Assembly (NCBI RefSeq): GCF_001280565.1
Contig: NZ_LGRO01000001.1
Coordinates: forward strand, 496,001 to 560,000
Reading direction: 5' to 3'
DNA from: Sulfobacillus thermosulfidooxidans
Lineage (GTDB): Bacteria; Bacillota; Sulfobacillia; Sulfobacillales; Sulfobacillaceae
Length of the DNA stretch: 64,000 nt
Shown: piece by piece, positions 1,717-63,278 of the stretch
How the letters are laid out: the number at the start of each line of letters is the position of its first letter
How positions within the stretch are numbered: position 1 is the stretch's first letter
Notes under the pieces: model-generated
What the model saw: the letters and a program-made list of their open reading frames with translations, nothing else
Told to the model about the DNA's origin: nothing
The model's database searches: none
Made by a program: the position numbers and the translations under genes

Positions 1717-3078
1717 TCATACGGAAGAGATGTCTTCCAAACTCCGTCCGTTGGTCCGTGGGCCCATAATACCAATAACCGAAGCCACAATAGCCATCGC
1801 GAGCGAAATGAATGCAAAAACGCCCAGGACGCCAAAGGATTTCAATAAGGCCACGATGATAAATCCGACGAGCGCCGAACTTAACCGGCTCCAACTATAC
1901 GTAAAGCCCACACCGGTTGCTCGAATGCGTGTCGGATACAATTCGGCTTGATAGGAATGAAACAACGTGCTAAACCAGTTATTAAGGAGCGTAATGACAA
2001 TCCCCAGGGTAATGATGCCCACCGGCGTGCGCATCTGGGAAAAAACTAAACCCGCAATGCCGATACTCAGGGACACGACAACAATTTGCCACTTTCTTTG
2101 CCAGCGGTCTGACATCACCATGCCAATGATCGGTCCCAATGGATTAAATAACGCAATTAAAAAGGTGTACAGCAACGAATGAATTAACGTAATCCCTTCA
2201 CTCACCAACAAGGTGGGAACCCACGATGCGAAACCGTAAAACCCAATGGTTTGGAAGAGATTGAAAATCAATAACATAATCGTACGGGAACGGTAAGGAG
2301 GGACCCAAATTTCCCGAAAGTGACCGCGGGATTCATTTTCCTCAGCGCCCGGGCGTACCGGGGGCAAGGATCCGACTTCCTTCGCTACCGCCGTTTCAAT
2401 GTGTTGCATCACCGCATTAGCTTGGGTCATATCGCCATGATTCTCATACCAGCGCGGGGATTCGGGTAATCCTTGGCGGATCCACCAGACGACAACCGAA
2501 CCTAAGGCACCGATTAACACCACCCATCGCCATCCAGCCATCAGCACGTGGGTGGGGACGAGAGTATAGGCCAAAAACGCCACGACCGGGACCGCCCAAT
2601 AGGTGATAAATTGACTGAAGGCAATATAATAGCCGCGCCGGGAGGCCGGAGTCATTTCACTGACATAGGTATCGATGACAACAAGCTGCGCACCGACCCC
2701 AAACCCCGCGAGAAGACGGAACACATCAATCCAGACGGCATTGGGCGAAAAGGCCATAAGGATCGTGAAAAACGAATAAATGAGCAACGAATAGACATAA
2801 CCATTGCGGCGACCAATTTTGTCACTAATATTGCCGAAGATCGATGTGCCAAAAAACATCCCCAAAAATCCCGCGCCCACAAAATAGGCTAATCCGGAGA
2901 CGGGCATCACTTGAGCATGAACCAGGGCGGCCCCCACGGCCCCCGCCATGAACAATTCGTAAAATTCAAAGAGTCCTCCGGTTGAGACTCTTGCCACTAA
3001 GCGTTGAAAATAGGGCGCTGGTGGCAATCGATTCATTCGGTCGGCAATCGTAAAGCGGGTATTTGCAGCCGTTGCCAT
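1717..3078 (-). CDS. MFS transporter, sugar/aromatic-acid porter type
   Basis: A 453-residue integral membrane protein with about 12 hydrophobic segments. The loop 2-3 motif A is present as GNISDKIGRRNGY, the post-TM6 motif is PESPRW, and a long cytoplasmic centre lies around residues 215-255. This places it in the sugar_tr / AAHS side of the major facilitator superfamily, which move sugars or organic acids with protons. The start ATG has AAAGGAG 10 bases upstream. It is the last gene of a minus-strand operon behind CoA-transferase, amidohydrolase and lyase genes, so it probably imports the organic acid these enzymes degrade (inference). A hairpin sits between the lyase stop and this gene, and a strong terminator follows it. 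Confidence 0.85.
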   Translation of the reverse strand: MATAANTRFTIADRMNRLPPAPYFQRLVARVSTGGLFEFYELFMAGAVGAALVHAQVMPVSGLAYFVGAGFLGMFFGTSIFGNISDKIGRRNGYVYSLLIYSFFTILMAFSPNAVWIDVFRLLAGFGVGAQLVVIDTYVSEMTPASRRGYYIAFSQFITYWAVPVVAFLAYTLVPTHVLMAGWRWVVLIGALGSVVVWWIRQGLPESPRWYENHGDMTQANAVMQHIETAVAKEVGSLPPVRPGAEENESRGHFREIWVPPYRSRTIMLLIFNLFQTIGFYGFASWVPTLLVSEGITLIHSLLYTFLIALFNPLGPIIGMVMSDRWQRKWQIVVVSLSIGIAGLVFSQMRTPVGIITLGIVITLLNNWFSTLFHSYQAELYPTRIRATGVGFTYSWSRLSSALVGFIIVALLKSFGVLGVFAFISLAMAIVASVIGIMGPRTNGRSLEDISSV

Positions 3079-3141
3079 ACTTCATCCACTCCTTTCATGA
3101 TTTCGATTTATCTGACAATTTTATGCGTAATCATGCTTGCT

Positions 3142-3169
3142 GCGCCCCCCATGATTAATGCGGGGGCGC
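3142..3169 (-). terminator. Hairpin over the lyase stop codon, possible attenuator
   Basis: GCGCCCCC (3142-3149) and GGGGGCGC (3162-3169) form a perfect 8-bp G+C stem overlapping the end of the lyase gene. There is no T-run on either side, so it is more likely an mRNA-stability or partial attenuation element between the lyase and MFS genes than a full terminator. Confidence 0.4.
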
Positions 3170-4021
3170 CAGGTGTTGCGCAATCACGTTCAATAAGCGC
3201 TGCCGAATCCAAGGCAACTGGCTGATGTCAATGTGGGTGGCCAGGCCTTGAGACTGAAAGAAGGCAACAAGTTTTTCCGTATCCAGATTCCCCGCCGCTC
3301 CCGGGGCATATGGGCAGCCCCCCAGTCCGGCTAAGGCCGATTCAAATGTGTGAACTCCGAGCTCATAAGCCGTCGCGACATTGGCCAGTCCCCATCCCAT
3401 GCGGTCATGAAGATGGAGGGCTAAGGGGATTGTCGGTGCGATGGACTGAACCACACGGATGCGTTCTTTGACCTGAAGGGGCGTGGCGGTTCCTAGGGTG
3501 TCGGCAATCCCGAGTTCATCCACCCCCATGTCACAATAACGTTCCGCGATCAGGGCGACCGCATGGATGGGGACAACCCCTTCAAAGGGACATTCAAACG
3601 CGGTGCTAATAGCGCCTCGGACTTTGAGACCCGCCTCGTGCGCCCGTCTCGTAGCGGCTGTGAGTTGGGACAGCGTCTCATCGCGAGAACGATTAAGGTT
3701 GGCTTGGTTGTGACGTTCTGATGCGGACACGACTAGCGTCACCGTATTGGCCCCGGCGGCAATCGCGCGTTCCACGCCTTTGAGATTGGGGGCCAAGGCG
3801 ATCCACTCCCCCGGAAGGTCTTGCAGCTGGGACAGAACGGCCTCGCCATCGGCTAACAAGGGCACCCAGCGAGGATGGACAAATGCAGCGACTTCGATCG
3901 CGTGAATACCGGCCTGGAACAGAGCGCGGATCAAGGCGACTTTGTCGGGAACCGGAACGTAACCCGTGGCATCCTGAAGCCCATCGCGGGGTGTCACATC
4001 CACTATCTTGACTGGCGTCAT
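3155..4021 (-). CDS. Hydroxymethylglutaryl-CoA lyase family enzyme
   Basis: A 288-residue TIM-barrel lyase of the HMGL-like family. Visible landmarks are the N-terminal DVTPRDGLQ strand (family consensus EVGPRDGLQ, with the catalytic Arg and metal-binding Asp), the HLHDRMGWG histidine motif, and the GGCPYAPGAAGN signature carrying the loop cysteine of HMG-CoA lyases. These enzymes split HMG-CoA into acetyl-CoA and acetoacetate using a divalent metal. The ATG overlaps the stop of the upstream amidohydrolase by 4 bases (ATGA), indicating translational coupling. Together with the class III CoA-transferase in the operon it suggests activation and cleavage of a branched dicarboxylic acid. Other 3-hydroxyacyl-CoA substrates cannot be excluded. 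Confidence 0.85.
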   Translation of the reverse strand: MTPVKIVDVTPRDGLQDATGYVPVPDKVALIRALFQAGIHAIEVAAFVHPRWVPLLADGEAVLSQLQDLPGEWIALAPNLKGVERAIAAGANTVTLVVSASERHNQANLNRSRDETLSQLTAATRRAHEAGLKVRGAISTAFECPFEGVVPIHAVALIAERYCDMGVDELGIADTLGTATPLQVKERIRVVQSIAPTIPLALHLHDRMGWGLANVATAYELGVHTFESALAGLGGCPYAPGAAGNLDTEKLVAFFQSQGLATHIDISQLPWIRQRLLNVIAQHLAPPH

Positions 4022-51850: not shown

Positions 51851-52657
51851 CTAGGCCGAGGGGCTATCATCCCAGGGGGCCCGGCCAATAACTTGGGTGA
51901 CGGGTTGCCATTGATCCCGAAAACGATCCCACAACGGAGCGGATTGGGCATCCAGCCAGGCAGCCACCGAATTTTCCCAGGTCGTGATGTGGTCAGCGGT
52001 CCACCATCCCCGGTGATAGGCATACCGGCCAAACACCAAGGCGGTCGTGAGTACGTCCGCTGTGCAATACTCCCGAATGGCTTCGATCTCACCCGCTTGA
52101 TACCGGTCCCACACCTGGCTCCCGTCCATGTCGAGTTTGCCCGGAATGCCCAAGACTCGGGCCATTTCGTGCAGGCTCATGCGGGGACTCGACCCATAAA
52201 AGCTCAAGACATCCATCAAATCCAGATGGTTGTCCTCATCAAAGCGTTTGCGGTAGCCATGATATGGCTCCCCCCACAGATAAAACTGGGGCGCGGCCAC
52301 GCCATGCACCATCGCCCGATACACCAAGACGGGTAAATCAAATCCTTGCGAGTTCCATCCCACTAAGCGGGGGTGCCCCACACTGATGATACGAAAGGCT
52401 TCTTCAATCAGGGCGGCCTCAGACCACGAGGGGTCCCCCAAAGCCCGCAATTGGCGCAACATCCCGTTGGGCGCGATCCACGCTCCGGCAATGGCCACAA
52501 TCTGATGAAACGCGGGTTTGGGCATCCGAGCCGGGGGTGATGGTTCGGGGGCGGTCGCATCCTCGGATGGGGGATCAGTGGGGGATGCGGCGTGAAGGCG
52601 AGCCAGATCGGGAATGGTTTCGAGATCCAAGACAAAAATCGGGGATGGTAAGGTCAT
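51851..52657 (-). CDS. PolB-like 3'-5' exonuclease
   Basis: A 268-residue DnaQ/PolB-type exonuclease. Exo I is FVLDLETIPD (D-x-E), Exo II is LVGWNSQGFDLPVLV (N..F-D), and Exo III is REYCTADVLTT (Y-C-x-x-D). A linker rich in proline and acidic residues lies at about 20-50. The ATG at 52657 has GGAGGG at the right distance; the frame is open 22 codons further left. Such stand-alone exonucleases are common in phage replication modules and probably trim or proofread DNA. It is 34 bases downstream of the S24 repressor gene on the same strand. Confidence 0.8.
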   Translation of the reverse strand: MTLPSPIFVLDLETIPDLARLHAASPTDPPSEDATAPEPSPPARMPKPAFHQIVAIAGAWIAPNGMLRQLRALGDPSWSEAALIEEAFRIISVGHPRLVGWNSQGFDLPVLVYRAMVHGVAAPQFYLWGEPYHGYRKRFDEDNHLDLMDVLSFYGSSPRMSLHEMARVLGIPGKLDMDGSQVWDRYQAGEIEAIREYCTADVLTTALVFGRYAYHRGWWTADHITTWENSVAAWLDAQSAPLWDRFRDQWQPVTQVIGRAPWDDSPSA

Positions 52658-52691
52658 GACGTATGCACCCTCCTTTTCGGAAATCCCGACT

Positions 52692-54296
52692 CTAAAACGG
52701 GGCTTCGGGCGGATCCCCGTCATCCGGGGGGATTCGGGTCGGGTTCGCCTGGTTCATGCGCCGAAACCGCACCAACATCGATTGCATCAGGCGTTGCTGT
52801 TCCTCGATGACGCGTTGCTGGGCTTGCAGCAAGTCTCGCTGATCCGGCGTCAGACCCGCCCAGGGATCCGGTGATTCTCCCGATTCGACACGGGGGAGCG
52901 GGGACGGGGGGCGGCGCTGAATGCCCCGCACGATCCCCACGATGCGATCCCGTTCGGGATCCAAAGGCATGTCGGCATAGCGGGGATTGGCCGCCCGCAA
53001 CCACCACGAACCATCCGCCTGTCGAATCACCCACTTGAGCGTTTGTTCGCCATCGACTAAGGCCACAACCAAGGTGTTGGGAGGCACGTCGCGCCCCGGG
53101 GGGACGTGTTCCACGATGATCGTATCGCCTTCGGTAATCCCCGCAGGAAGCATGCTATCCCCGTGTACGGTCACAGCGAAGTCTCCGGGGTCATCCCGAG
53201 GAATCCACACATCCCCGTGATGATCCGTCTGCGCTTCCACGGGCACCCCGGCAATTACGCGGCCTAGCAAGGGAATGGCGCGCACGGGCCATTCGGGGGT
53301 AGAGGGTGTCGGGGGCGTAGACGGGGTAGCCCATGCAATCGCGTGGATCTGGCCCCGGTAGAATCTCATATTCACGGTATCACGGGCCTTATCATGCGCG
53401 GCTGTGAACGCCGCCAGTAAGTCCTCATAATTCTGATGCCCGGAAAACCAGACCTGGCGGGCCTTGCCGTGACGAGAGATCCGGCCTAGCAGGGCAGTTA
53501 GTCCCACCACATCCTGATAAACCGTGGGGGGATCCATCACGCACGCGTCCATCAAGGCCCATAGCCACACTCCCGGTAATTCATCCAGGGGGGTCGTGGG
53601 ATGCCGCGAATCCCACGGGGTGCGTAACACTCCATGGTCTTCCAAGAAGGTCCAATCGGCCTCGGATACGGGGTGATTCCAGTGCGCGTTCCAATGCTGC
53701 ACGACGGCTGTCACGGAATGCCGGTGCGCTTGGCGGCACGTGCGGAGGTACGATCCCCCCTGTTGGTTAAACCAATCGCTATGATAGGGAGCCATTTTGC
53801 GCCACGGCCACTGCATCACATTGACCACCCGGTCCAACGCGGCATCGGGATCCATATATCCCGCAATCACCGCCATGGCCAGCGTGGGCATCTGCAAGAA
53901 ATTGGCCAGGGCGAAGGCCACCCGGATGGAGGGGCGGGCTACCGAACGCGGAGGCAGGAGATCAGATAACCCAACGTCCAGAGTGAACGCGAGTTGATCG
54001 GTGGTGAGATGGTATTGTGTTTGAACATCTACTACAAAGGATGCCCAGGACGGAGACGAAGATCCCCTGGCCTGTTGATCCACACTTATGATAGTGGAAT
54101 CGGATAAGTCATCCATTGAGATGTTGAGGGCATCGGCGATTTTTTTTAACATGTCAAAACTCGGTTGACGCAATCCCAACTCATACCGACTAATGTTGTT
54201 CTGCGTTGTGCCGATTAGTTTGGCTAAATCCGTTTGGCTCAACCCCAACCGCTTGCGAATTGCTTGAAGTTTGGCCCCGAACGACAATTCTTCCAA
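52692..54296 (-). CDS. XRE/S24 (CI/LexA-like) repressor
   Basis: About 534 residues. N-terminal XRE helix-turn-helix (LQAIRKRLGLSQTDLAKLIG, TTQNNISRYELGLRQPS); a 270-residue middle domain not recognised; then a C-terminal S24 autopeptidase: AIPLLGRVIAGVPVEA with the Ala-Gly cleavage-like site, VHGDSMLPAGI (nucleophile Ser) and GEQTLKWV (Lys). A coiled-coil tail (LLQAQQRVIEEQQRLMQ) follows. It would repress the integrative element and cleave itself on SOS/RecA signals. TTG 54296 is chosen because GGGAGG precedes it by 7 bases; ATG 54311 lacks a site. Much longer than typical CI (about 230). Confidence 0.85.
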   Translation of the reverse strand: MEELSFGAKLQAIRKRLGLSQTDLAKLIGTTQNNISRYELGLRQPSFDMLKKIADALNISMDDLSDSTIISVDQQARGSSSPSWASFVVDVQTQYHLTTDQLAFTLDVGLSDLLPPRSVARPSIRVAFALANFLQMPTLAMAVIAGYMDPDAALDRVVNVMQWPWRKMAPYHSDWFNQQGGSYLRTCRQAHRHSVTAVVQHWNAHWNHPVSEADWTFLEDHGVLRTPWDSRHPTTPLDELPGVWLWALMDACVMDPPTVYQDVVGLTALLGRISRHGKARQVWFSGHQNYEDLLAAFTAAHDKARDTVNMRFYRGQIHAIAWATPSTPPTPSTPEWPVRAIPLLGRVIAGVPVEAQTDHHGDVWIPRDDPGDFAVTVHGDSMLPAGITEGDTIIVEHVPPGRDVPPNTLVVALVDGEQTLKWVIRQADGSWWLRAANPRYADMPLDPERDRIVGIVRGIQRRPPSPLPRVESGESPDPWAGLTPDQRDLLQAQQRVIEEQQRLMQSMLVRFRRMNQANPTRIPPDDGDPPEAPF

Positions 54297-54479
54297 AAGA
54301 TGTCCTCCCATTTACTTGATGGCTAAATTATATTTCATTGGAATATAAATCAGAATAAAAAGGTAAATTTTTTCTTGACAAGGTATTCCATAGCGATGTA
54401 AGTTAGTTTCACAAGATAAGGTTTAAGCAGTTTAGAGCTTAATTATCCATCTGTTCTTGATGGATAGAGGAGGATTCCC
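54297..54479. promoter_or_regulatory. Divergent promoter/operator of the S24 repressor
   Basis: AT-rich divergent region. A near-palindrome TATATTTCATTGGAATATA at about 54333-54351 lies before the repressor gene, and TTGACA at 54375-54380 (with GATGTA about 16 bases on) faces the small plus-strand gene. The nearby TATTCCATAG recalls one half of the palindrome. Binding by the S24 repressor is inferred. Confidence 0.5.
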
Positions 54480-54707
54480 ATGGCGATCAACGATGAAACC
54501 CCACGCCCCCCGAAGGGGGCCAAGTGTCCGGAGGACTTCCTGCGCATCATCCGACCGAACAGCCCCAATCCTTTTGCGGACTTATCCGATGAACAATTGG
54601 AAGCCCTCGTGTTCTTGTTCCCCGATATCGAAGCGGGACGGTACGACCGCTGGATTGCATCCGGATGCTATGGTCCGCCTATTCCGGATGATCAGTGGCC
54701 CCGGTAA
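54480..54707 (+). CDS. Small hypothetical protein opposite the repressor
   Basis: 75 residues, ATG at 54480 with GGAGG. Proline-rich start, then an acidic helix (SDEQLEALVFLFPDIEAG) and a CYGPPIPDDQWP end. No family known. As the first gene transcribed away from the repressor it is in the position of a Cro/early gene, but it has no DNA-binding motif. It overlaps the tail of the convergent two-HTH regulator by 29 bases. Confidence 0.6.
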   Translation: MAINDETPRPPKGAKCPEDFLRIIRPNSPNPFADLSDEQLEALVFLFPDIEAGRYDRWIASGCYGPPIPDDQWPR

Positions 54708-55284
54708 CCCATCGCCGGGCGGCATCCCATTCCGCTTGGGAGACCCTCCGCCGCCAGAGTTCTTCCATAGTGGCGACGCTTGTTCGCAGACGGTGCCACT
54801 CCTCAATGGTGATGGAATCATCGCGGGGAAACAAATTCGTGGGGCGATCTAGCAACCAATCGAGGCTCACGTGCAGGGTATCGGCCACTAACAACAAATC
54901 GGCGAGCGTGGGGAACGTGGTGCCTTGTTCCCATTGCTCCCATTGCTCGGGGTCTACGTGCACTAACAGGGCACACTGGGCCGGGGACAACCGCCGCACC
55001 GCCCGGACTTGGGCGAGGCGTTCTCCAAAGTGGTGCCATCGGGCGTGGGGCAGGACTTGGGTCATGGGATCTGATGGATTGTTCACATCGACCCGACCTA
55101 ACAAATAGTCGGTGGACGTTCCCAGAATATCCGCCAAGCGCACCAAGATTTCGAGCGGGGGCTGGCGGGACGATTGTTCATAATTAGAAATGGTAAATTG
55201 CGAAAGACCTAATTTCTCGCCCAATTCGGCTTGTGTATATCCATGCTGTTGCCGTAATTCTCGCATTCGGCTTCCAAACACCAT
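54679..55284 (-). CDS. XRE regulator with two HTH domains
   Basis: A 201-residue protein with two tandem XRE domains: residues 5-60 (MRELRQQHGYTQAELGEKLG then LSQFTISNYEQSSRQPP) and 85-145 (LAQVRAVRRLSPAQCALLVH, then VDPEQWEQWEQGTTFPT, more divergent). The C-terminus is a helical tail. ATG at 55284 with GGAG. Divergent to the small XRE gene at 55437 across a region with a palindromic operator, so the two probably form a switch pair controlling the nuclease-helicase-primase operon. Confidence 0.8.
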   Translation of the reverse strand: MVFGSRMRELRQQHGYTQAELGEKLGLSQFTISNYEQSSRQPPLEILVRLADILGTSTDYLLGRVDVNNPSDPMTQVLPHARWHHFGERLAQVRAVRRLSPAQCALLVHVDPEQWEQWEQGTTFPTLADLLLVADTLHVSLDWLLDRPTNLFPRDDSITIEEWHRLRTSVATMEELWRRRVSQAEWDAARRWVTGATDHPE

Positions 55285-55363
55285 ATTCCATTCTCCATTG
55301 CATCAATGTTGAACATTACGATACGCAATAATATGGCATTCAGAAAATTTTAAGCATGACATA

Positions 55364-55392
55364 TTGCACGATATGACAAAAAGTCATATAAT
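55364..55392 (+). promoter_or_regulatory. Promoter with operator palindrome for the early operon
   Basis: -35 TTGCAC (55364-55369), 17-base spacer, -10 TATAAT (55387-55392). The palindrome ATATGAC-AAAAA-GTCATAT (55371-55389) fills the spacer and overlaps the -10; a half-site CATGACATA lies just upstream at 55355-55363. An XRE regulator bound there would block polymerase. Confidence 0.75.
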
Positions 55393-55436
55393 AATGGCAA
55401 GGATGACAAAACGACTGTAAGGAAGGAGCACCGCTG

Positions 55437-55667
55437 ATGAGTCCCTTAAGGGAAATCCGCCGCCGGCGTCGCATGACGCAGACCCAACTGGCGGAATGCA
55501 TTGGAGTCACGCAAAGCCACATCGCGCAAATCGAGCGTGGCAAGCGACGCGGGAGTATCGCGGTGCTGCAAAAGCTCGCGGTGGCGTTGAATGTGTCGTT
55601 GACCGACCTCTTACCTCCGGAGTGTGCCAATCCGAAAATCCCTGAAAAGGAGACCGTTGTCCAATGA
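55437..55667 (+). CDS. Small XRE-family regulator (Cro-like)
   Basis: 76 residues, one XRE domain: LREIRRRRRMTQTQLAECIG, VTQSHIAQIERGKRRGS, LQKLAVALNVSLTDLLPP. ATG at 55437 with AAGGAGC. Its stop overlaps the next gene (ATGA at 55664-55667), so it heads the operon with the Cas4-like nuclease. It most likely binds the palindrome in its own promoter, competing with the two-HTH regulator. Confidence 0.85.
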   Translation: MSPLREIRRRRRMTQTQLAECIGVTQSHIAQIERGKRRGSIAVLQKLAVALNVSLTDLLPPECANPKIPEKETVVQ

Positions 55668-56527
55668 CCCCCAACCGTTTATCCTGTGACAACGAAAAAG
55701 CACTTTCTCGCTTAAATTCCGTACATTCACCAGCAACGTCACCGCTGGACGCAATCCTGGAAGACGCGATACCCGAAGGCCCCTTGCCCTGCGGCAATTG
55801 GTCTCCGGTGCGGCTCGCAGAGTGGCTCCAGTGTCCCGCTCGGGGCGCGTGGAGCGCCGGAGTGTGGGAATTGCCCGAAGATTTTGACTATCCACTTCGA
55901 CCCGATGCCCAGATCGGCAAGGCCATGCACAAATATGCCGAGACGCGGTTGCTCGGGATGGCCCCCGATGACGCGGCGGCGGCGGCGGCGGATGAGGCCA
56001 TTGAGACCGATCCGGAAACGTGGCTCCCGTTGGTGGATGTGTGGGAAAGTACAATCCTGCCTCAGATCGGCACGCCCCAGGCCGTCGAGCAACGCCTAGA
56101 AGCGGATATCGACGGGCTCCCCGTGACGTGCGTGATCGACGTGGTGGATCAAATGGGTCAAATCCGCGACCTCAAGACCACCAAACGCACGCCCAACCCG
56201 ATGGATGTGATCCGAAAATCACTACAGGCCCCTCTGTACGTCGAAGGATGGAGACAGACCACTGGGAAAACCGCTCCGTTTATGCTCGATTATTTGATTC
56301 GGACGAAAACGCCCCAAGCCGTCACGGTAGCGGTTCCGGTGACTCAATCCGCCATCGACCGGGTGCGGCGCCAACTGGCATGGGCTCAAGACCTGGCGAT
56401 GAACCCTGATCACATTATCCCGAATCCCTATAATGCCTACGGCTGCGGGGGATGCCCGTTTGTGTCGGCGTGTAGCGATGCCTTCGACTTTCCGCGTCCT
56501 GAGACCGTCTCCGCTCAATCGATTTGA
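55664..56527 (+). CDS. PD-(D/E)XK nuclease with cysteine cluster (Cas4/RecB-like)
   Basis: A 287-residue RecB/Cas4-family nuclease. QIGKAMHKYAETRL gives the motif I histidine region, CVIDVVDQMGQIRDLKTTKR gives D...D-x-K (motifs II/III), and QAPLYVEGW the QxxxY motif. One Cys in LQCPARGAW plus the C-terminal set GCGGCPFVSAC make an iron-sulfur cluster likely, as in Cas4 and AddB. In phages such enzymes resect DNA ends for recombination. Coupled to the XRE gene (ATGA) and followed by a recombination-type protein and a helicase. Confidence 0.8.
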   Translation: MTPNRLSCDNEKALSRLNSVHSPATSPLDAILEDAIPEGPLPCGNWSPVRLAEWLQCPARGAWSAGVWELPEDFDYPLRPDAQIGKAMHKYAETRLLGMAPDDAAAAAADEAIETDPETWLPLVDVWESTILPQIGTPQAVEQRLEADIDGLPVTCVIDVVDQMGQIRDLKTTKRTPNPMDVIRKSLQAPLYVEGWRQTTGKTAPFMLDYLIRTKTPQAVTVAVPVTQSAIDRVRRQLAWAQDLAMNPDHIIPNPYNAYGCGGCPFVSACSDAFDFPRPETVSAQSI

Positions 56528-56613
56528 GCGGGGATGGCCCCCGGACGGGGGATTTTCAACAACCACCATTCACGGTTCCACAATACAACGAAACACACGA
56601 AAGGATGATTCCA

Positions 56614-57312
56614 TTGGCATTAGCACCCTCCACCAACACCCCCCCAACCGTTCCGGATTATCCCGTTGTCCGGGATTATCCGGAGGCGGACTTGATCCCC
56701 GAACGGTTTCGGGTAAAGGTTCGTAGCTTTGAAAGCGAAGCGGAAGCCGTCCAAACCATGACGGGCGTGATTCTCGCCATCCGGCCTTCCCGGTGGTTCG
56801 CCGTGCCCGATGAAAAAAATCCCGAGGATCAGCTCACGGTTTGCGAATTGACCGACCCGCAACATGGATTGTACCGGCTTGACCCCGCCGCAGGTGACGC
56901 GGGACCCACGGAGATCCGCGAATGCGCCACGTGCCCGCTCAACAAATGGCGGTCCGCTCCCAACGGAGGGAAAGGGAAAGCATGCCGGGAAAAGCGGCTA
57001 CTGCTCTTTTTACGCGACGGGGAGTACCTGCCCATCGTCGTGGTAGCCCCTCCGACGTCGCTACGATCCGTGGCCCGCTTTGTGACCCGCGCCGCCGCGC
57101 GCCGTCTCAAGCTCGGCCAAATCCATGTGAAACTCGCGATCGATGCCCAAAAACGCGGGCAAGAGGAATGGGGGGTTTTGCGGATAGAGGAAATGGAACT
57201 CTTGAGTGACGCAGCCCAACAAGATCTCGCAGACCGCCTGCAACAGGGTCCGTTAGCCCGCATGTATCACGAGTATGTGGCGATGCTGGCTCTTTCTGAC
57301 CCCAGCCTTTAA
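56614..57312 (+). CDS. Phage-type zinc-motif protein, probable ssDNA-binding/recombination role
   Basis: About 232 residues from TTG 56614 (AAAGG 9 bases upstream; ATG 56605 is too close). The centre has ECATCPLNKW, a GGKGKACREKRLLLFL stretch, and YLPIVVVAPPTSLRSVARFV. This Cys...Cys-P...GKGK-aC-..Rr-L layout is shared by phage proteins placed beside exonucleases and helicases and thought to bind single-stranded DNA. The family assignment is from memory of the pattern, so moderate. Located between the Cas4-like nuclease and the helicase genes. Confidence 0.6.
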   Translation: MALAPSTNTPPTVPDYPVVRDYPEADLIPERFRVKVRSFESEAEAVQTMTGVILAIRPSRWFAVPDEKNPEDQLTVCELTDPQHGLYRLDPAAGDAGPTEIRECATCPLNKWRSAPNGGKGKACREKRLLLFLRDGEYLPIVVVAPPTSLRSVARFVTRAAARRLKLGQIHVKLAIDAQKRGQEEWGVLRIEEMELLSDAAQQDLADRLQQGPLARMYHEYVAMLALSDPSL

Positions 57313-57407
57313 CCAACATCCGGCATCCGAGCGGCCACTCGGATGCCGGACCTACCACTGATTGTGTGTGTGTTCACATCCGCTCCTACGAAAGGAGAAA
57401 AAAAGAT

Positions 57408-58187
57408 ATGAACGATCAAATGATATCCGAAAGTCGGATATCCGAAAATACGCCCCAGGGCCATCGACCCTCGGGTAATCAACTGGCCGCGGCTCGGACG
57501 CAACAGCGCCGACAAATTAAAAAAGAGCTTCGCGCATCGATCCGAGTAACCCTGGTCAACTTGCGGCTAGGTCTTAAAGCGGCGCGTGACGAAGTCCGAT
57601 GGCTTGCCGACGCCCTGCCGCGACCCCAAGAACTCTTGCGGGCTTTGGAGCACGATGCCATGACCGAAGACGAACCCGCGGCTCCTCGAGTGCATCACGG
57701 CAAAGCACCCACTCCATTGCGCATTTATCAATTCCTCGTGCAGCACACCGCATGGGAGTCCATGAGTGGCCGCGCCCGCCAGCGGGCACTCCGGGCCCAC
57801 AAAGAAAGTTTGGAAAACGCGGTGCGCCAAGAAGCCCTAGACCAGATTCTGGATGCGCTGGATCGGGCCATCAATGCCGCTCGGGGCAAGCCCAAACTGA
57901 TCGCCGAGCTACGCATGATGGCGCAAGACGCCATCTGGAAACTGAAAGGTCGGGGACGATGGGAAGCGCCGATCCTGATCTCGCAGCTCTATGACCAGCG
58001 AACCACCACCATGCCTAAAAACGAGTACGTGGCGCAAACAACGCCCCATTCTTCGACGCTCACAGCTCCGGATGCCGCCATCGCCACCCTCATGGACCAC
58101 CCCGTCCCGACCCGTAAAACGCAGGGCATCTTTCGTCAAACCACGACCCCCGCACCAAACTGGGACTGGGCTCACCGTTCTCGGTGA
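57408..58187 (+). CDS. Hypothetical phage-module protein, helical and basic
   Basis: 259 residues from ATG 57408 (AAAGGAG upstream). Almost entirely helical, rich in Arg, Lys and Ala, with RRQIKKELRASIRVTLVNLR and LDQILDALDRAINAARG segments and a disordered Thr/Pro tail. No family recognised; DNA or protein scaffold roles are possible. A perfect hairpin covers its stop codon. Same strand as the neighbouring nuclease and helicase genes. Confidence 0.6.
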   Translation: MNDQMISESRISENTPQGHRPSGNQLAAARTQQRRQIKKELRASIRVTLVNLRLGLKAARDEVRWLADALPRPQELLRALEHDAMTEDEPAAPRVHHGKAPTPLRIYQFLVQHTAWESMSGRARQRALRAHKESLENAVRQEALDQILDALDRAINAARGKPKLIAELRMMAQDAIWKLKGRGRWEAPILISQLYDQRTTTMPKNEYVAQTTPHSSTLTAPDAAIATLMDHPVPTRKTQGIFRQTTTPAPNWDWAHRSR

Positions 58188-58194
58188 GCCCAGT
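58165..58194 (+). terminator. Perfect hairpin across a stop codon
   Basis: ACTGGGCTCACCG (58165-58177), loop TTCT, CGGTGAGCCCAGT (58182-58194). The TGA stop of the preceding gene is inside the right arm. No T-run follows, so it may stabilise the upstream mRNA or attenuate rather than fully terminate. Confidence 0.6.
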
Positions 58195-58272
58195 CTCGTG
58201 GCGGGGTGTTTTTGGGCCTTGCTATTTGCATCTTGCCATTCGCATCAACATTCAAAAAGGAGCGATGGATTT

Positions 58273-58671
58273 ATGGTAACGAAGCCCCAACCCCAACGCA
58301 CGGACACGATGCCTCGGTGGGTGACGGCACAGTTCCCCCCAGGGGACGTGGATGTGGCCCAGCGCGGGGCCGTAATCCGGCATCCGGTCTATGTTCCGCG
58401 TTCGTTAGCCGACCGCATTCACCGCCACGCCCAAAGGCATGGCCTGTCGGTCAGTGCCTGGTGCCGCATGGCGATTACCCGTGCCATGGCGCGGGGTTCC
58501 CTCCCCTCCATCCCCACGCCCCCCGAAAAATTCCCCGAAGACAAATGTCTCGTATGGGTCTATTTGCCCGACACGGTGAATCTAGCGGTAGATCGGCAGC
58601 GCCAGGGTCATTCATGGTCTCGCTTTTTGCGGGCGATTCTGGCCGATGCCGTGACGAAGGAGGAGGACTAA
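58273..58671 (+). CDS. Small hypothetical protein before the helicase
   Basis: 132 residues, ATG 58273 with AAGGAG. VYVPRSLADRIHRHAQRHGLSVSAWCRMAITRAMARG resembles a ribbon-helix-helix-type element (strand followed by two helices), suggesting a small DNA-binding regulator. The second half (LVWVYLPDTVNLAVDRQRQ and onwards) repeats a similar strand-helix-helix pattern, so there may be two such units. 5 bases separate it from the helicase start. Confidence 0.6.
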   Translation: MVTKPQPQRTDTMPRWVTAQFPPGDVDVAQRGAVIRHPVYVPRSLADRIHRHAQRHGLSVSAWCRMAITRAMARGSLPSIPTPPEKFPEDKCLVWVYLPDTVNLAVDRQRQGHSWSRFLRAILADAVTKEED

Positions 58672-58676
58672 AGACC

Positions 58677-59906
58677 ATGGAGTTACGACCGTACCAGCAG
58701 GCCGCGCTTCACGCCATCACCGCGGGCATGGAGCAGGGGGTTCATCGTCCTGTGGTCTCTCTGCCGACGGGCACCGGAAAAACCGTCGTGGCCGCCGAGC
58801 TTTTGCGCCGTCGGGGGCAGACCGCGCTCTTTTTGGCGCACCGGGACGAACTGATCCGCCAAGCCGCCCACACGATTCGGATGGTATGGCCCGATGCCGG
58901 CGTGGGCCTGGTGAAGGGGGCCGAGGACCAATGGCAGGCTCCGGTAGTCGTCGCCAGCGTGCAGTCGCTGCACCTGAAACGGCTCCAACGCTGGCATCCA
59001 GATCGGTTTGGAACCATCGTGGTGGATGAATGCTTTCCGGCAGGCACGCTTATTGATGGAAAACCGATTGAGACACTCCGTATAGGAGATCGAGTGATGG
59101 CCTTTAATCCCAATACCGGAGAGTTTGCATTAAAACGTGTGACACATGTTTTTCGTCGCCCCGTGCATCGTCTTGTTCACCTTAAAACCCCCACACGATC
59201 TGTTTTTGTGACTCCCAATCATCCTTTTTGGACCCAGCGAGGATGGGTCCAGGCCCAAGAACTGCAACAAAGCGACCAGGTTTTCGTAATAGGAGGAAAT
59301 TGTCATGAAATTGATGCCATGCCCTTCATGCGGAATCGTTCGATGGGTGCAAACTCCCCAACAGTTGTGTCGAAAATGCACGGCCAAAATAGCCCAGAGA
59401 AAGCGAAGCATTTTAGCTCCCTGCATTTGGTGTGGGAAAACAACCAGGTTGATGGAAGCCGAAGCTATTCGCCGATTTCGATCAACAGGACGTGCGTATT
59501 GTTCAGCGACTTGCAAGACATCGTGGATTCGTCAGAATTCGAAACAGACCATGATACGAACGAATCACAAATATGCCGCCGAGAGAATGCGACAGAACAA
59601 CCCTATGAAAAAGCCCCAAGTTCGCGACAAGCTCAGCCACACCTTACGTTCGATGAACTGGAAACCCCCAATTCGCGGAGGAAATGGATGCCCTCTCCCC
59701 GTGCCACAATTGTTGTTGGCAGACGCCTTAAACTGGCCGACAGAATACATTGTCCCGACCAAAATGGGGAGAACGGCGGGTTATCCCACGCATTACAAAA
59801 TCGATATCGCCAATCCTTTTTACAAAATCGCCATCGAAATCGATGGAGGCTCTCACTACAGTATCAAAACCCAGCAACGCGATTTCAAGAAAAATCAATG
59901 GCTTAG
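58677..59906 (+). CDS. SF2 helicase N-terminal part fused to split-intein N-half
   Basis: Residues 1-118 are the front of a phage-type SF2 helicase: Q-region LRPYQQAAL, Walker A LPTGTGKTVVAAELL, Ia LFLAHRDELI, and VVDE of motif II. At residue 119 (59031) the sequence switches to an intein: block A CFPAGTLIDGKPIETLRIGD, block B VFVTPNHPFWT, ending by about 59300 (90 residues). Open reading continues about 200 codons, overlapping the endonuclease gene in another frame, to TAG 59904-59906. The helicase resumes only in the C-half gene. The product must trans-splice with it to rebuild DE-CHH. Confidence 0.85.
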   Translation: MELRPYQQAALHAITAGMEQGVHRPVVSLPTGTGKTVVAAELLRRRGQTALFLAHRDELIRQAAHTIRMVWPDAGVGLVKGAEDQWQAPVVVASVQSLHLKRLQRWHPDRFGTIVVDECFPAGTLIDGKPIETLRIGDRVMAFNPNTGEFALKRVTHVFRRPVHRLVHLKTPTRSVFVTPNHPFWTQRGWVQAQELQQSDQVFVIGGNCHEIDAMPFMRNRSMGANSPTVVSKMHGQNSPEKAKHFSSLHLVWENNQVDGSRSYSPISINRTCVLFSDLQDIVDSSEFETDHDTNESQICRRENATEQPYEKAPSSRQAQPHLTFDELETPNSRRKWMPSPRATIVVGRRLKLADRIHCPDQNGENGGLSHALQNRYRQSFLQNRHRNRWRLSLQYQNPATRFQEKSMA

Positions 59907-60087
59907 TGGGAACGGGTGGATTGTGTTACGATGCTCGAACCGCACAGTGATGAACAATTTGAGCGGGTGTGTCCAGATGGTACAGTCTATAATCTGGAGG
60001 TTGAAGAATGGCATACCTATACAGCCAACGGAATCGTTGTCCATAACTGTCATCACGCCCCCGCACCCAGTTATCGCCAAATCTTAG
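59305..60087 (+). CDS. Free-standing Vsr-like homing endonuclease between split-intein halves
   Basis: 260 residues in the +1 frame relative to the helicase. ATG 59305 has a perfect AGGAGG 8 bases upstream, so it is translated independently. Two N-terminal zinc fingers (CPSCGIV...LCRKC and CIWCGKTTR...YCSATC), a NUMOD-like segment (NPMKKPQVRDKLSHTLRSM), RGGNGCPLPVPQ, and a C-terminal Vsr/PD-(D/E)XK nuclease: YKIDIANPFYKIAIEIDGGSH and WLSGNGWIVLRCSN. This is the endonuclease family described with fractured split-intein genes. It would cut intein-less helicase alleles. Its last 50 codons overlap the intein C-half. Confidence 0.85.
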   Translation: MKLMPCPSCGIVRWVQTPQQLCRKCTAKIAQRKRSILAPCIWCGKTTRLMEAEAIRRFRSTGRAYCSATCKTSWIRQNSKQTMIRTNHKYAAERMRQNNPMKKPQVRDKLSHTLRSMNWKPPIRGGNGCPLPVPQLLLADALNWPTEYIVPTKMGRTAGYPTHYKIDIANPFYKIAIEIDGGSHYSIKTQQRDFKKNQWLSGNGWIVLRCSNRTVMNNLSGCVQMVQSIIWRLKNGIPIQPTESLSITVITPPHPVIAKS

Positions 60088-61406
60088 ACTACTTACAGCC
60101 GGAATTGCTCCTCGGTATCACAGCGACGCCGTTTCGGACCGATCTGACCTCGCTCCAGACGGTGTTTGATCGCATTGTGTATGCGTATGGCATTCGAGAT
60201 GCTATCCAAGATCGTTGGTTGGTAGACATCCAAGCCGTGCGGGTTACGGGCACGGCCAACTTAGACACGGTGGCCACCCGAGGCGGGGACTTTGTAGAGG
60301 GGCAATTGCAGCAGGCCCTGAACACGTCCGCCCGCAATGCGATTGTGGTGGAAGCCTATCTAACCCACGCACCGGGCAGCAAGGCCCTTGTGTTTGCATC
60401 GGGAGTCGATCATGCGTATGCCCTGGCTGAGTGTTTTCGGGAGCAAGGGATCACGGCGGAAGCCCTCGATGGCAGCATTCCGGGGGATGTCCGACGGAGC
60501 ACGCTCCAACGGTTTCGGGAAGGCACGATCTCCGTCTTGGTGAACGCCATGTTGTTTACCGAAGGGTTTGATGACCCGTCGATTGACACCGTGATCCTCG
60601 CCCGCCCGACCAAAAGTTTGGCTCTTTTTACCCAAATGGTGGGGCGGGGCACCCGACTGGCCCCGGGCAAAGACCACATGATCCTGATTGATATCGTGGA
60701 CGCCACCCGGAGGCATAAGATCGTGTCGCTCAAGCACCTGCTCGGACTGCGACGGGATTTAGCCACCGGCACTCGCGTCAGTCAGGCCATGGCTCGGGAA
60801 GCTCGGGTCACCGCGCAGGCCGAAACCTGGCTAACCCGCGTGGCTCCGCATCGCATCGAGAGCCAGGACGTGGTGGATCTCTTTGCGGATCTGGTCGAAG
60901 ATACGACTCCCACGGTGGATTGGCGCGATGTCGCGGATGGCTTGGCCGATGTGATGGAAGATCTGCCACTCAAGACCGACATTCTGCACGAATGTGTCAC
61001 ACGGTTTGGGATGGTGCGTCCCGAAGACCCCAGCACCCCGACGCAACGGCAACGTCTCCAAGACTTCGGGTGGCCTTCCGATGAAGCCGACAAGCTGGCC
61101 AAATGGGCCGCGTCCTGGGCCTTAGACCGCCATCGCGAAGCCCTTGCGACGTGGACCCAGAATCGAGCGACCCAGTGGGCCAACTTGTTTGGCACCTCTC
61201 CGGATGAGGTCTCGACCGCCGTGCGGGATGCCCTCTGGAAACTCACGCCCGCATCGGCGAAACAAAAAGCCTGGTTGCGTCGCCTGGGCACCCCGGAGGA
61301 ACTGGTGGAAGGACTTACCAAAGGAGAAGCATCTTGGCTCATCGATCACACTCCTCGCCGGGCTTCGCGAGCATCCTGGGAAGAGGTGTTGTTCCATGGC
61401 GATTAA
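59931..61406 (+). CDS. Split-intein C-half fused to SF2 helicase C-terminal part
   Basis: In the same frame as the N-part, after the TAG at 59904. From ATG 59931 (GTG 59916 possible) 39 residues form the intein C-half: block F VYNLEVEEWHTYTANG and block G IVVHN, with the terminal Asn at 60045-60047. The C-extein starts with Cys at 60048, giving CHHAPAPSYR (rest of DECHH), motif III GITATPFRTD, the second RecA domain with ALVFASGVDHA, and motif VI QMVGRGTRLAPGK. A C-terminal domain of about 200 residues is not recognised. After trans-splicing the helicase would be about 570 residues. Confidence 0.85.
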   Translation: MLEPHSDEQFERVCPDGTVYNLEVEEWHTYTANGIVVHNCHHAPAPSYRQILDYLQPELLLGITATPFRTDLTSLQTVFDRIVYAYGIRDAIQDRWLVDIQAVRVTGTANLDTVATRGGDFVEGQLQQALNTSARNAIVVEAYLTHAPGSKALVFASGVDHAYALAECFREQGITAEALDGSIPGDVRRSTLQRFREGTISVLVNAMLFTEGFDDPSIDTVILARPTKSLALFTQMVGRGTRLAPGKDHMILIDIVDATRRHKIVSLKHLLGLRRDLATGTRVSQAMAREARVTAQAETWLTRVAPHRIESQDVVDLFADLVEDTTPTVDWRDVADGLADVMEDLPLKTDILHECVTRFGMVRPEDPSTPTQRQRLQDFGWPSDEADKLAKWAASWALDRHREALATWTQNRATQWANLFGTSPDEVSTAVRDALWKLTPASAKQKAWLRRLGTPEELVEGLTKGEASWLIDHTPRRASRASWEEVLFHGD

Positions 61407-61533
61407 GCACCGTGTTTGGGGGTCCGCTGTGCGACGTGTGCTGATCGTCCTCGGAGAGTGGATGGTTCTGGTGGGAATGAGTGAGGGGGTGATCCTCGGT
61501 GCTGGATGGCTTCACCGCTTATTCCACACCTGA
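61396..61533 (+). CDS. Small single-span membrane protein
   Basis: 45 residues, ATG 61396 with GAGGTG at good spacing, overlapping the helicase stop by 11 bases and the primase start by 35. Basic N-terminus (MAIKHRVWGSAVRR), then one hydrophobic helix (VLIVLGEWMVLVGMSEGVILGAGW). It may be a small phage membrane protein; function unknown. Confidence 0.5.
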   Translation: MAIKHRVWGSAVRRVLIVLGEWMVLVGMSEGVILGAGWLHRLFHT

Positions 61534-62566
61534 TCCGAACGATATCGCCCGGTGGTGGGCGTATCTGGTGGTGCCCGATACGGATGTGGAAGTCCGCATC
61601 CTCTATCGCCAAGGGCCTCCTGCCATTGGGCGGTTTACCGATGGTCGGGCGTTTCGTCAGGCCATTACCCAAGCGGATGCGGATGCCGCAGTGACCGGAA
61701 TCTATGCCACCTTAAATCCCGTGCGGCGGGATATTCCCTGGTCGTATCCCCGGAACCGATTACACCGGGGAGGCCCCGCGGCCCGGGATACAGATATCGC
61801 CACGCGACGGTGGTTGTTGATTGACCTCGATCCCCGTCGCCCTCCTCACACCAACGCCACGGCATCCGAACGACAAGCCGCGTTTGCTCGGGCCGCGAGC
61901 ATTCGAGATGCACTGACGGCTTTGCATTGGCCTGCTCCCGCCCAAGGGATTTCGGGGAACGGAGCGCACCTCGTTTACCCTCTGGCCGACTGGCCGAATA
62001 CGCCCGACACTACGGCGATGGTGCAACAAATTCTGCACGCGGTCGCCGCCCGGTTCAGCGACGCCGAGGTGGACGTGGATCAGAGTGTTTTTAACGCCAG
62101 CCGCATTAGCAAAATTTATGGCACGACTCCCCGCAAGGGCGATCCCGTGCCCGACCGTCCTTGGTGGCCTGCCCGCTTACTGGCTGTACCGGATCGCCAA
62201 CATCCCTTGACCCGTGACCGAGCCTTGCGCGTGTTGGGATGGGTTCAACCCCAGAAACCCCCAGCGCATCGGCTGACCCCGGGAGGCCGGTCGGCATCCC
62301 CCCGGTTCGTCACGGTGGACCACGTTATCACCACCTTGGCGGCTTGGGGCATCACCGTGCGATCCGATCCCCAACTCTACGGGGGATGGTGGCGCATCTG
62401 GATTGAGTGTCCTTGGGCGTCTGAGCATTCGGGGTTTAGCGGAGTCTCCGAAACCGCCGTCTTTTGGGATCCCGCCACGCACCGGATGGGGTTTCAGTGC
62501 CAACACGCGCATTGTGCCCATCGCACCTGGCAAGATGTGAAAAGGAATTTTGGTTCACAACGGTAG
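61499..62566 (+). CDS. Archaeo-eukaryotic-type primase of a phage/integrative element
   Basis: 355 residues from GTG 61499 (GAGGGGGTG upstream). AEP-like motifs: RRWLLIDLDPRRP (D-x-D metal motif), AQGISGNGAHLVYPL (S-G-N-G-x-H-L), and SRISKIYGTTPRKGD (the K-x-Y-G-T third motif). The C-terminal 100 residues, with WRIWIECPWASEH and FQCQHAHCAHRTW, resemble a PriCT or zinc-binding tail. It should make primers for element replication together with the helicase just upstream. The last gene of the replication module. Confidence 0.8.
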   Translation: MLDGFTAYSTPDPNDIARWWAYLVVPDTDVEVRILYRQGPPAIGRFTDGRAFRQAITQADADAAVTGIYATLNPVRRDIPWSYPRNRLHRGGPAARDTDIATRRWLLIDLDPRRPPHTNATASERQAAFARAASIRDALTALHWPAPAQGISGNGAHLVYPLADWPNTPDTTAMVQQILHAVAARFSDAEVDVDQSVFNASRISKIYGTTPRKGDPVPDRPWWPARLLAVPDRQHPLTRDRALRVLGWVQPQKPPAHRLTPGGRSASPRFVTVDHVITTLAAWGITVRSDPQLYGGWWRIWIECPWASEHSGFSGVSETAVFWDPATHRMGFQCQHAHCAHRTWQDVKRNFGSQR

Positions 62567-62574
62567 ATCGTTGG

Positions 62575-62700
62575 TGAAGGTAGGTATGATGTAAAGAAAA
62601 GGAGTGTGGCAATGACGTTGAAGCAGGTTTATCGGAATGCACCGTAAAAACTCCGTCCTTCAGGGCGGAGATATCAGGCGCTGACCCCGTAGGGGTCAAT
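62575..62700 (+). mobile_element. IS200/IS605-type end remnant
   Basis: A tiny frame at 62612-62647 (MTLKQVYRNAP, AAGGAG upstream) precedes two hairpins: CTCCGTCC/GGGCGGAG (62651-62670) and TGACCCC/GGGGTCA (62682-62698). The first, with its CTTCAGGG loop, is very like the conserved right-end hairpins of IS605/TnpB elements. No transposase or TnpB of useful length is present. Confidence 0.55.
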
Positions 62701-62753
62701 CCGGGGTTTCCTGCTAATTACCGTAACGGTTCGTCAAGAAGGGAGGGTGCTCC

Positions 62754-63278
62754 GTGCGAGAGACGACGGTCTTCACCTATCGTGTTACCCTGTCCCCAAC
62801 GGAATGGAACAAAGCGTCTCAAGCTCGTCGAGCCGCTGGCGATCTGTGGACGCGCTTGGAAGAATGTCAACGGCATCCTGAGAGATCGTTAGGGTGGGTT
62901 GTCCCCTATGTCATTGACCGCTTTTCATATGACCATGAAAAGGGCGAATGGCCGGACAAATATCAACTATCTCAGATGCGCTTTTGGGGGGAAGCATTGT
63001 CACCGCTAGAACCCATACCATACACGTTTTATGTTCATTTCGCATGTTCTCCAGAGTGTCAGGGGCATCGTCTCTCGATCATCGACTGGAAAATTTATCA
63101 ATTCTATCGTCGCGCCAGAACCTCTGAGAAAGTTATCCAAAGACTGAACACCCTCAATTCAAAATGCAATCTATCTTTCTTCGTAGGGACGTCGCTTAAG
63201 GCACATGTGTTTAAAACATACATGGTGATTGGATTGTATTATCCGCCAAAAACACGTAATCTAGTGTTCCCGTTTTAA
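62754..63278 (+). CDS. Chimeric protein: TnpB-like start joined to an unrelated domain
   Basis: 174 residues, GTG 62754 with GGGAGGG. The first ~35 residues (TVFTYRVTLSPTEWNKASQA, GDLWTRL) look like the front of an IS605-type TnpB. From about residue 45 it becomes another domain with IPYTFYVHFACSPECQGHRLSIIDW (Cys, Cys, G-H, D-W pattern), KIYQFYRR, FFVGTSLKAHVF and VIGLYYPP, a combination recalling a conserved hypothetical domain whose function I cannot name. The junction with IS605 debris just upstream suggests the gene lost its own start and borrowed that of the element. Confidence 0.55.
   Translation: MRETTVFTYRVTLSPTEWNKASQARRAAGDLWTRLEECQRHPERSLGWVVPYVIDRFSYDHEKGEWPDKYQLSQMRFWGEALSPLEPIPYTFYVHFACSPECQGHRLSIIDWKIYQFYRRARTSEKVIQRLNTLNSKCNLSFFVGTSLKAHVFKTYMVIGLYYPPKTRNLVFPF

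Follow-up and report, generated by a model that had tools for sequence, protein, structure and literature searches.

A 64,000-nucleotide stretch of the Sulfobacillus thermosulfidooxidans genome (contig NZ_LGRO01000001.1, positions 496,001 to 560,000; hereafter the window, with positions counted from its first letter) carries a RadD-like superfamily 2 (SF2) helicase gene that is interrupted at motif II by an intein, and the DNA of this intein also holds a gene for a predicted Vsr-like endonuclease. Comparison with relatives indicates that, very probably, a class-1 intein here houses its homing endonuclease as a separate gene, placed in the +1 frame within the intein's own coding sequence rather than fused to the intein in frame. 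The architecture, its conservation and selection on both frames are read from the sequences, from which we infer splicing, DNA cutting, homing and translational re-initiation.

The helicase frame opens with an ATG at 58677 and runs through VVDE of motif II into the intein Cys1 at 59031. After a TAG codon it continues unshifted, reading WERVDCV..., and crosses the second splice junction as VHN/CHHAP at 60047/60048. The initial annotation had placed the insertion between DE and CHH of an SF2 helicase, and homologues bear this out: three helicases from the same genus or family carry a 129-amino-acid mini-intein at exactly this site, while others are intein-free and read DEAHH. All class-1 residues are present (Cys1, TxxH in block B, the terminal HN and Cys+1, in CFPAGT..TPNHP..VHN/C), and Pfam and NCBIfam profiles assign ResIII and HINT to the N-half, intein_Cterm and Helicase_C to the C-half and DUF559 to the endonuclease. 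We read the element as a class-1 intein between DE and CHH of a RadD-like SF2 helicase that is predicted to splice.

The endonuclease open reading frame (ORF; 59305-60087) lies at a +1 offset and, as first recognized, has an AGGAGG of its own, its ATG being directly preceded by TAGGAGGAAATTGTC. Two points of the initial annotation required revision. The N-half had been thought to end near 59300; the helicase frame in fact remains open for about 200 codons more, beneath the endonuclease gene, up to the TAG at 59904-59906. The proposed split intein around a free-standing endonuclease holds in so far as this TAG breaks the helicase into two ORFs; the endonuclease gene, however, overlaps the tail of the N-half, covers the whole C-terminal splicing segment (IntC) and reaches 40 nt into the C-extein. 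Among the window and its relatives, 69 of the 72 clusters that have an intein encode it as one uninterrupted ORF.

These relatives were collected by scanning viral and genome contigs and scoring the loci with profiles of the N-terminal splicing segment (IntN), IntC and the endonuclease, which yielded 109 loci in 75 clusters at 90% nucleotide identity, mostly from phages. In 69 clusters the host frame is contiguous, with no stop, and the endonuclease always sits at the +1 offset; the others comprise the window (one stop), two fully fractured clusters and three with an endonuclease and no intein. Five isolate phages show the contiguous form, with one helicase-intein ORF of 836-993 amino acids and the endonuclease ORF at +1: Corynebacterium phage phi673 (gp43, 836 amino acids), Vibrio phages K391, 1.088 and Rostov M3/CP-T1, and Pseudomonas phage MR14. 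The nested ORF was annotated in none of six phage GenBank records inspected. Host proteins, named by eye from their motifs, are ATPases interrupted at motif II or Walker B and include RadD-like, SNF2-like and DnaX-like (L022) proteins and giant ORFs (L029, L072, L085 and L091).

We then asked how far both frames are constrained, using synonymous shuffles in which neither the endonuclease protein nor its codon usage changed. Across 70 clusters a single host-frame stop was observed, the TAG of the window, against 591 expected; for the window alone the numbers were 1 and 9.6 (P < 1/4000). The overlapped IntC, taken as the last 44 codons, scored better against its profile than all 200 shuffles in 69 of the 70 clusters. 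In 54 held-out clusters that had not entered the profile, IntC averaged 65.1 bits versus 28.4 after shuffling, with z above 2 in all 54, and the window IntC reached 82.3 bits versus 14.0 ± 8.1. In addition, the Gly codon ahead of a conserved endonuclease Trp supplies a host-frame GTG in 57 of 70 clusters, while Gly codons end in G in only 36%. To judge from these patterns, the endonuclease tail and the C-terminal strands of the intein are both preserved within the same bases. Because the C-terminal splicing blocks are written in the same bases as the last part of the endonuclease gene, and because the host frame is kept open, we regard the family as dual-coding inteins. The nested genes also carry translation signals, a five-base Shine-Dalgarno match preceding the first ATG in 33% of cases versus 6% for control ATGs.

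The nested gene product contains an N-terminal part with CxxC motifs and a nuclease domain resembling Vsr and EDxHD enzymes. All 48 sequences compared share E178, D180, H184 and D193, which match EDxHD by residue order. A search of the PDB with the single endonuclease sequence (phmmer) gave nothing useful; a profile search matched 3hrl and 3r3p. The predicted fold of the window protein (mean predicted local distance difference test score [pLDDT] 91) places its nuclease domain near these two structures and Vsr (VIA-align 2), with Z scores of 12.6 for 3hrl, 10.8 for I-Bth0305I (3r3p) and 9.3 for Vsr (1cw0), in agreement with the Vsr-family assignment made at the outset. We therefore describe the product, on the strength of this model, as a Vsr-like (EDxHD-type) endonuclease, and cleavage of intein-less alleles is predicted. 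The HINT fold is likewise a prediction, read from a relative: an AlphaFold2 model of the host-frame intein of L033, which has the length of the window intein (339 amino acids), forms a confident HINT fold from its first ~100 and last ~50 residues (pLDDT mostly 92-98), joined by a disordered linker mostly below 50, and among solved structures it most resembles inteins and intein-like domains.

In the mechanism that we propose, ribosomes starting at the helicase ATG would translate frame 0, giving helicase-N, IntN, a flexible linker, IntC and helicase-C; IntN and IntC would fold as a HINT domain, splice the helicase and remove the IntN-linker-IntC segment. Internal initiation, from the Shine-Dalgarno sequence that belongs to the nested gene, would instead yield the Vsr-like endonuclease from frame +1, which may cut DE/CHH alleles lacking the intein, so that the element is copied in. 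Such homing is suggested by the insertion site, which is the conserved motif II or Walker B of different ATPases, by the same-genus or same-family helicases with a mini-intein or none at this position, and by the GC content of the window intein (48%) inside a gene whose exteins have 60-65%. In the window, the TAG just before IntC would end the N-half early and leave the helicase in two pieces, the second possibly re-initiated at GTG 59916, a codon fixed by the conserved Gly-Trp of the endonuclease.

Several observations weigh against this interpretation. About half of the nested genes have no clear Shine-Dalgarno sequence at their first ATG; most relatives come from metagenomic viral contigs, although the isolates agree with them; and the clusters are related by descent, so that the counts above, strong as they are, do not represent 70 independent trials. 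Furthermore, the window itself carries a stop, and contiguous translation therefore does not apply to the window as sequenced.

The meaning of this stop concerns only the present state of the window, and each of three explanations is compatible with the family architecture. It is quite possible that the helicase was recently broken, a contiguous dual-coding intein having acquired a single nonsense change that cost the full-length helicase. The TAG falls on endonuclease codons CTT AGT and can thus arise by a single base change, in a Leu CTN codon, that is silent for the nuclease; every other contiguous cluster has no stop, and the genome holds a second RadD-like helicase (C1:397665, 40% identity). 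Against a broken gene, neither the helicase nor the intein shows further decay.

With more reserve, we consider it possible that the window encodes a functional, naturally split intein, whose N-half (helicase-N, IntN and a tail of ~200 amino acids) and C-half (IntC and helicase-C) trans-splice around the separate endonuclease gene. The TAG lies right before IntC, 9 bases from GTG 59916, which would permit stop-start coupling; the three ORFs are otherwise intact; and an IntC begun at this GTG would have 44 amino acids, within the size range of known split inteins. Fully fractured relatives also exist (L103/L104 and L107/L108), one of which, L104, is placed with a contiguous member by the endonuclease tree. 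However, neither GTG 59916 nor ATG 59931 is preceded by a strong Shine-Dalgarno sequence, and 2 of 35 endonuclease-silent stop positions lie as close to IntC, which makes the placement of the TAG weak evidence for a working split. Moreover, with only one stop in ~200 codons, a split cannot be old.

A sequencing error at the TAG, or its readthrough, would make the window an ordinary contiguous member, but we think this unlikely. The departure from the family pattern is indeed a single base; however, the genome is nearly complete in three contigs, substitution errors are rare in such assemblies, and a scan limited to the window found no suppressor tRNA.

Two further alternatives question the architecture as such. 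That two compensating frameshifts place the endonuclease in frame inside a normal fused intein is very improbable: a single DNA stretch does hold both frames, but a fused protein would need no open host frame, against which stands the one stop versus 591 expected, and the nested genes carry Shine-Dalgarno signals. Assembly frameshifts were ruled out by the identical +1 offset in isolate phages and 69 clusters. Removal of the region as a group I or II intron at the RNA level, rather than by protein splicing, is scarcely credible, for although EDxHD endonucleases also occur in group I introns (PMC3943268), the intein splicing residues are conserved in the host frame, the frame is open in 69 clusters, and positions 58600-61500 gave no Rfam match at E ≤ 1.

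The fractured members bear on how split inteins may originate. Between IntN and IntC, L103/L104 contains 35 host-frame stops and L107/L108 contains 25. Since two clusters are fully fractured, fractured genes may plausibly derive from the nested state. In the endonuclease tree, fractured L104 groups with contiguous L018 with good support, and the intein-less, helicase-adjacent L056 and L073 stand beside contiguous members. The tree fits repeated exits from the nested state; its deep branches are poorly resolved and sampling began from a nested gene, so that the direction of change is not proven by it. We advance as a speculation, more doubtful than not, that widespread dual-coding inteins that had escaped description, with essential IntC codons under the overlap, are the source of fractured genes and natural split inteins, and that the window shows a split just beginning, a single mutation past the break, in which the Gly-Trp codons provide an NTG start for the C-half.

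In the fractured L103/L104 and L107/L108, the insertion follows DEAHC/DEHHR, not DE. In L056 and L073 (around 2995-3640) a free-standing endonuclease of the family immediately precedes a helicase gene of the target type that seems to have no intein. Dual-coding inteins in other ATPases were seen in L022, L026, L031, L029, L072, L085, L091, L016 and L017, among them giant ORFs with the site DEAH/C and one type with Ser at +1.

Sixty relatives held no close copy of the window's element, and 398 genomes of the phylum gave distant matches only. The window IntN shares 40-44% identity with mini-inteins of its own genus versus 42-52% with the best phage matches, and descent from the mini-inteins is a candidate origin. 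One same-genus helicase (L155, G003:C1:240500-245500) combines a mini-intein at DE/CHH with a second intein downstream (NAAVL/C ... GN/SEGFDEP), LAGLIDADG-type as judged by eye.

Among known systems, the closest are fractured genes in which a split intein goes together with a Vsr-like endonuclease, reportedly described by Dassa et al. in 2009. Both groups have a Vsr/EDxHD endonuclease in the intein of a DNA-metabolism gene and a phage-rich distribution. Unlike in fractured genes, nearly all members of the present family keep the intein in one unbroken ORF, and the endonuclease gene overlaps that intein including IntC; in the window a single codon makes the split. Canonical full-length inteins, with LAGLIDADG or HNH endonucleases fused in frame, share the HINT domain, the class-1 residues and the endonuclease position between IntN and IntC; there the endonuclease is a domain of the intein, whereas here it would be a separate protein from an overlapping frame.

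In ShiLan (Arsenault, Gosselin and Gogarten 2025, PMC11855218), an endonuclease also lies out of frame in an insertion through which the host-gene frame stays open. That element has an HNH nuclease, no splicing domain and no detectable ribosome-binding site (PMC11855218), whereas in the present family a HINT intein is conserved, the nuclease is EDxHD-like and many members have a Shine-Dalgarno sequence; a ShiLan-type element was ruled out for the window by its HINT blocks. I-Bth0305I, the exemplar of the EDxHD homing family (PDB 3r3p; PMC3943268), shares the nuclease fold, the Z score of 10.8 referring to the nuclease domain only, and belongs to a group I intron, not an intein.

When we searched the literature for inteins whose endonuclease occupies a different frame, all papers retrieved were of the ShiLan type, and the comparison extends neither to the full text of Dassa 2009 nor to a preprint on the 'non-canonical architecture' of actinobacteriophage inteins (Gosselin et al., cited in PMC11855218). 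That preprint may cover overlapping endonuclease frames, phi673 being an actinobacteriophage. Inteins, EDxHD nucleases and fractured genes are known in themselves; prior art is close, and part of the arrangement has perhaps already been described.

In the usual teaching an intein is either a splicing domain with an endonuclease fused to it in frame or a split gene, and the two-frame layout would be a third form. It would explain how a nuclease can travel with an intein and yet stay unfused, and why standard annotation misses that nuclease; natural split inteins might then be born from a single stop codon. The family would also offer a natural long same-strand gene overlap with selection measurable in both frames.

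Table 1. Features of the interrupted helicase locus, in window positions
Feature	Position	Strand	Evidence
Helicase N-extein (RadD-like SF2, motifs I-II, ending ...TIVVDE)	58677..59030	+	Pfam ResIII 4.5e-20; NCBIfam RadD
IntN splicing block (Cys1, block B TPNHP), free of overlap	59031..59304	+	PT-HINT 4.2e-12; alignment with mini-inteins and with phage inteins
Shine-Dalgarno sequence (AGGAGG), nested endonuclease gene	59291..59298	+	Sequence
Nested endonuclease gene, +1 frame relative to helicase, 260 aa	59305..60087	+	DUF559; invariant columns; predicted fold match to I-Bth0305I and Vsr
Host-frame intein linker, same DNA as endonuclease, open	59305..59903	+	1 stop vs 9.6 expected
TAG, the overlap's sole stop in the host frame; endonuclease reads CTT AGT (Leu-Ser) here	59904..59906	+	
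IntC (blocks F and G, ...HN), under the end of the endonuclease gene	59907..60047	+	TIGR01443 1.1e-8
Candidate C-half starts inside IntC	GTG 59916 or ATG 59931	+	
Helicase C-extein (CHH..., Helicase_C)	60048..61406	+	Helicase_C 3.2e-16; 42-59% identity to near-full-length relatives

The helicase lies within an apparent integrated replication-type module (51854-63278) that also contains genes for a PolB-like exonuclease, two phage-type repressors, a PDDEXK nuclease, an RHH protein and a LigD-like primase-polymerase. The ORFs tested over the 20 kb downstream included no phage structural genes; an RRXRR/HNH nuclease gene is located downstream of the module on the minus strand (L133:17019-18059).
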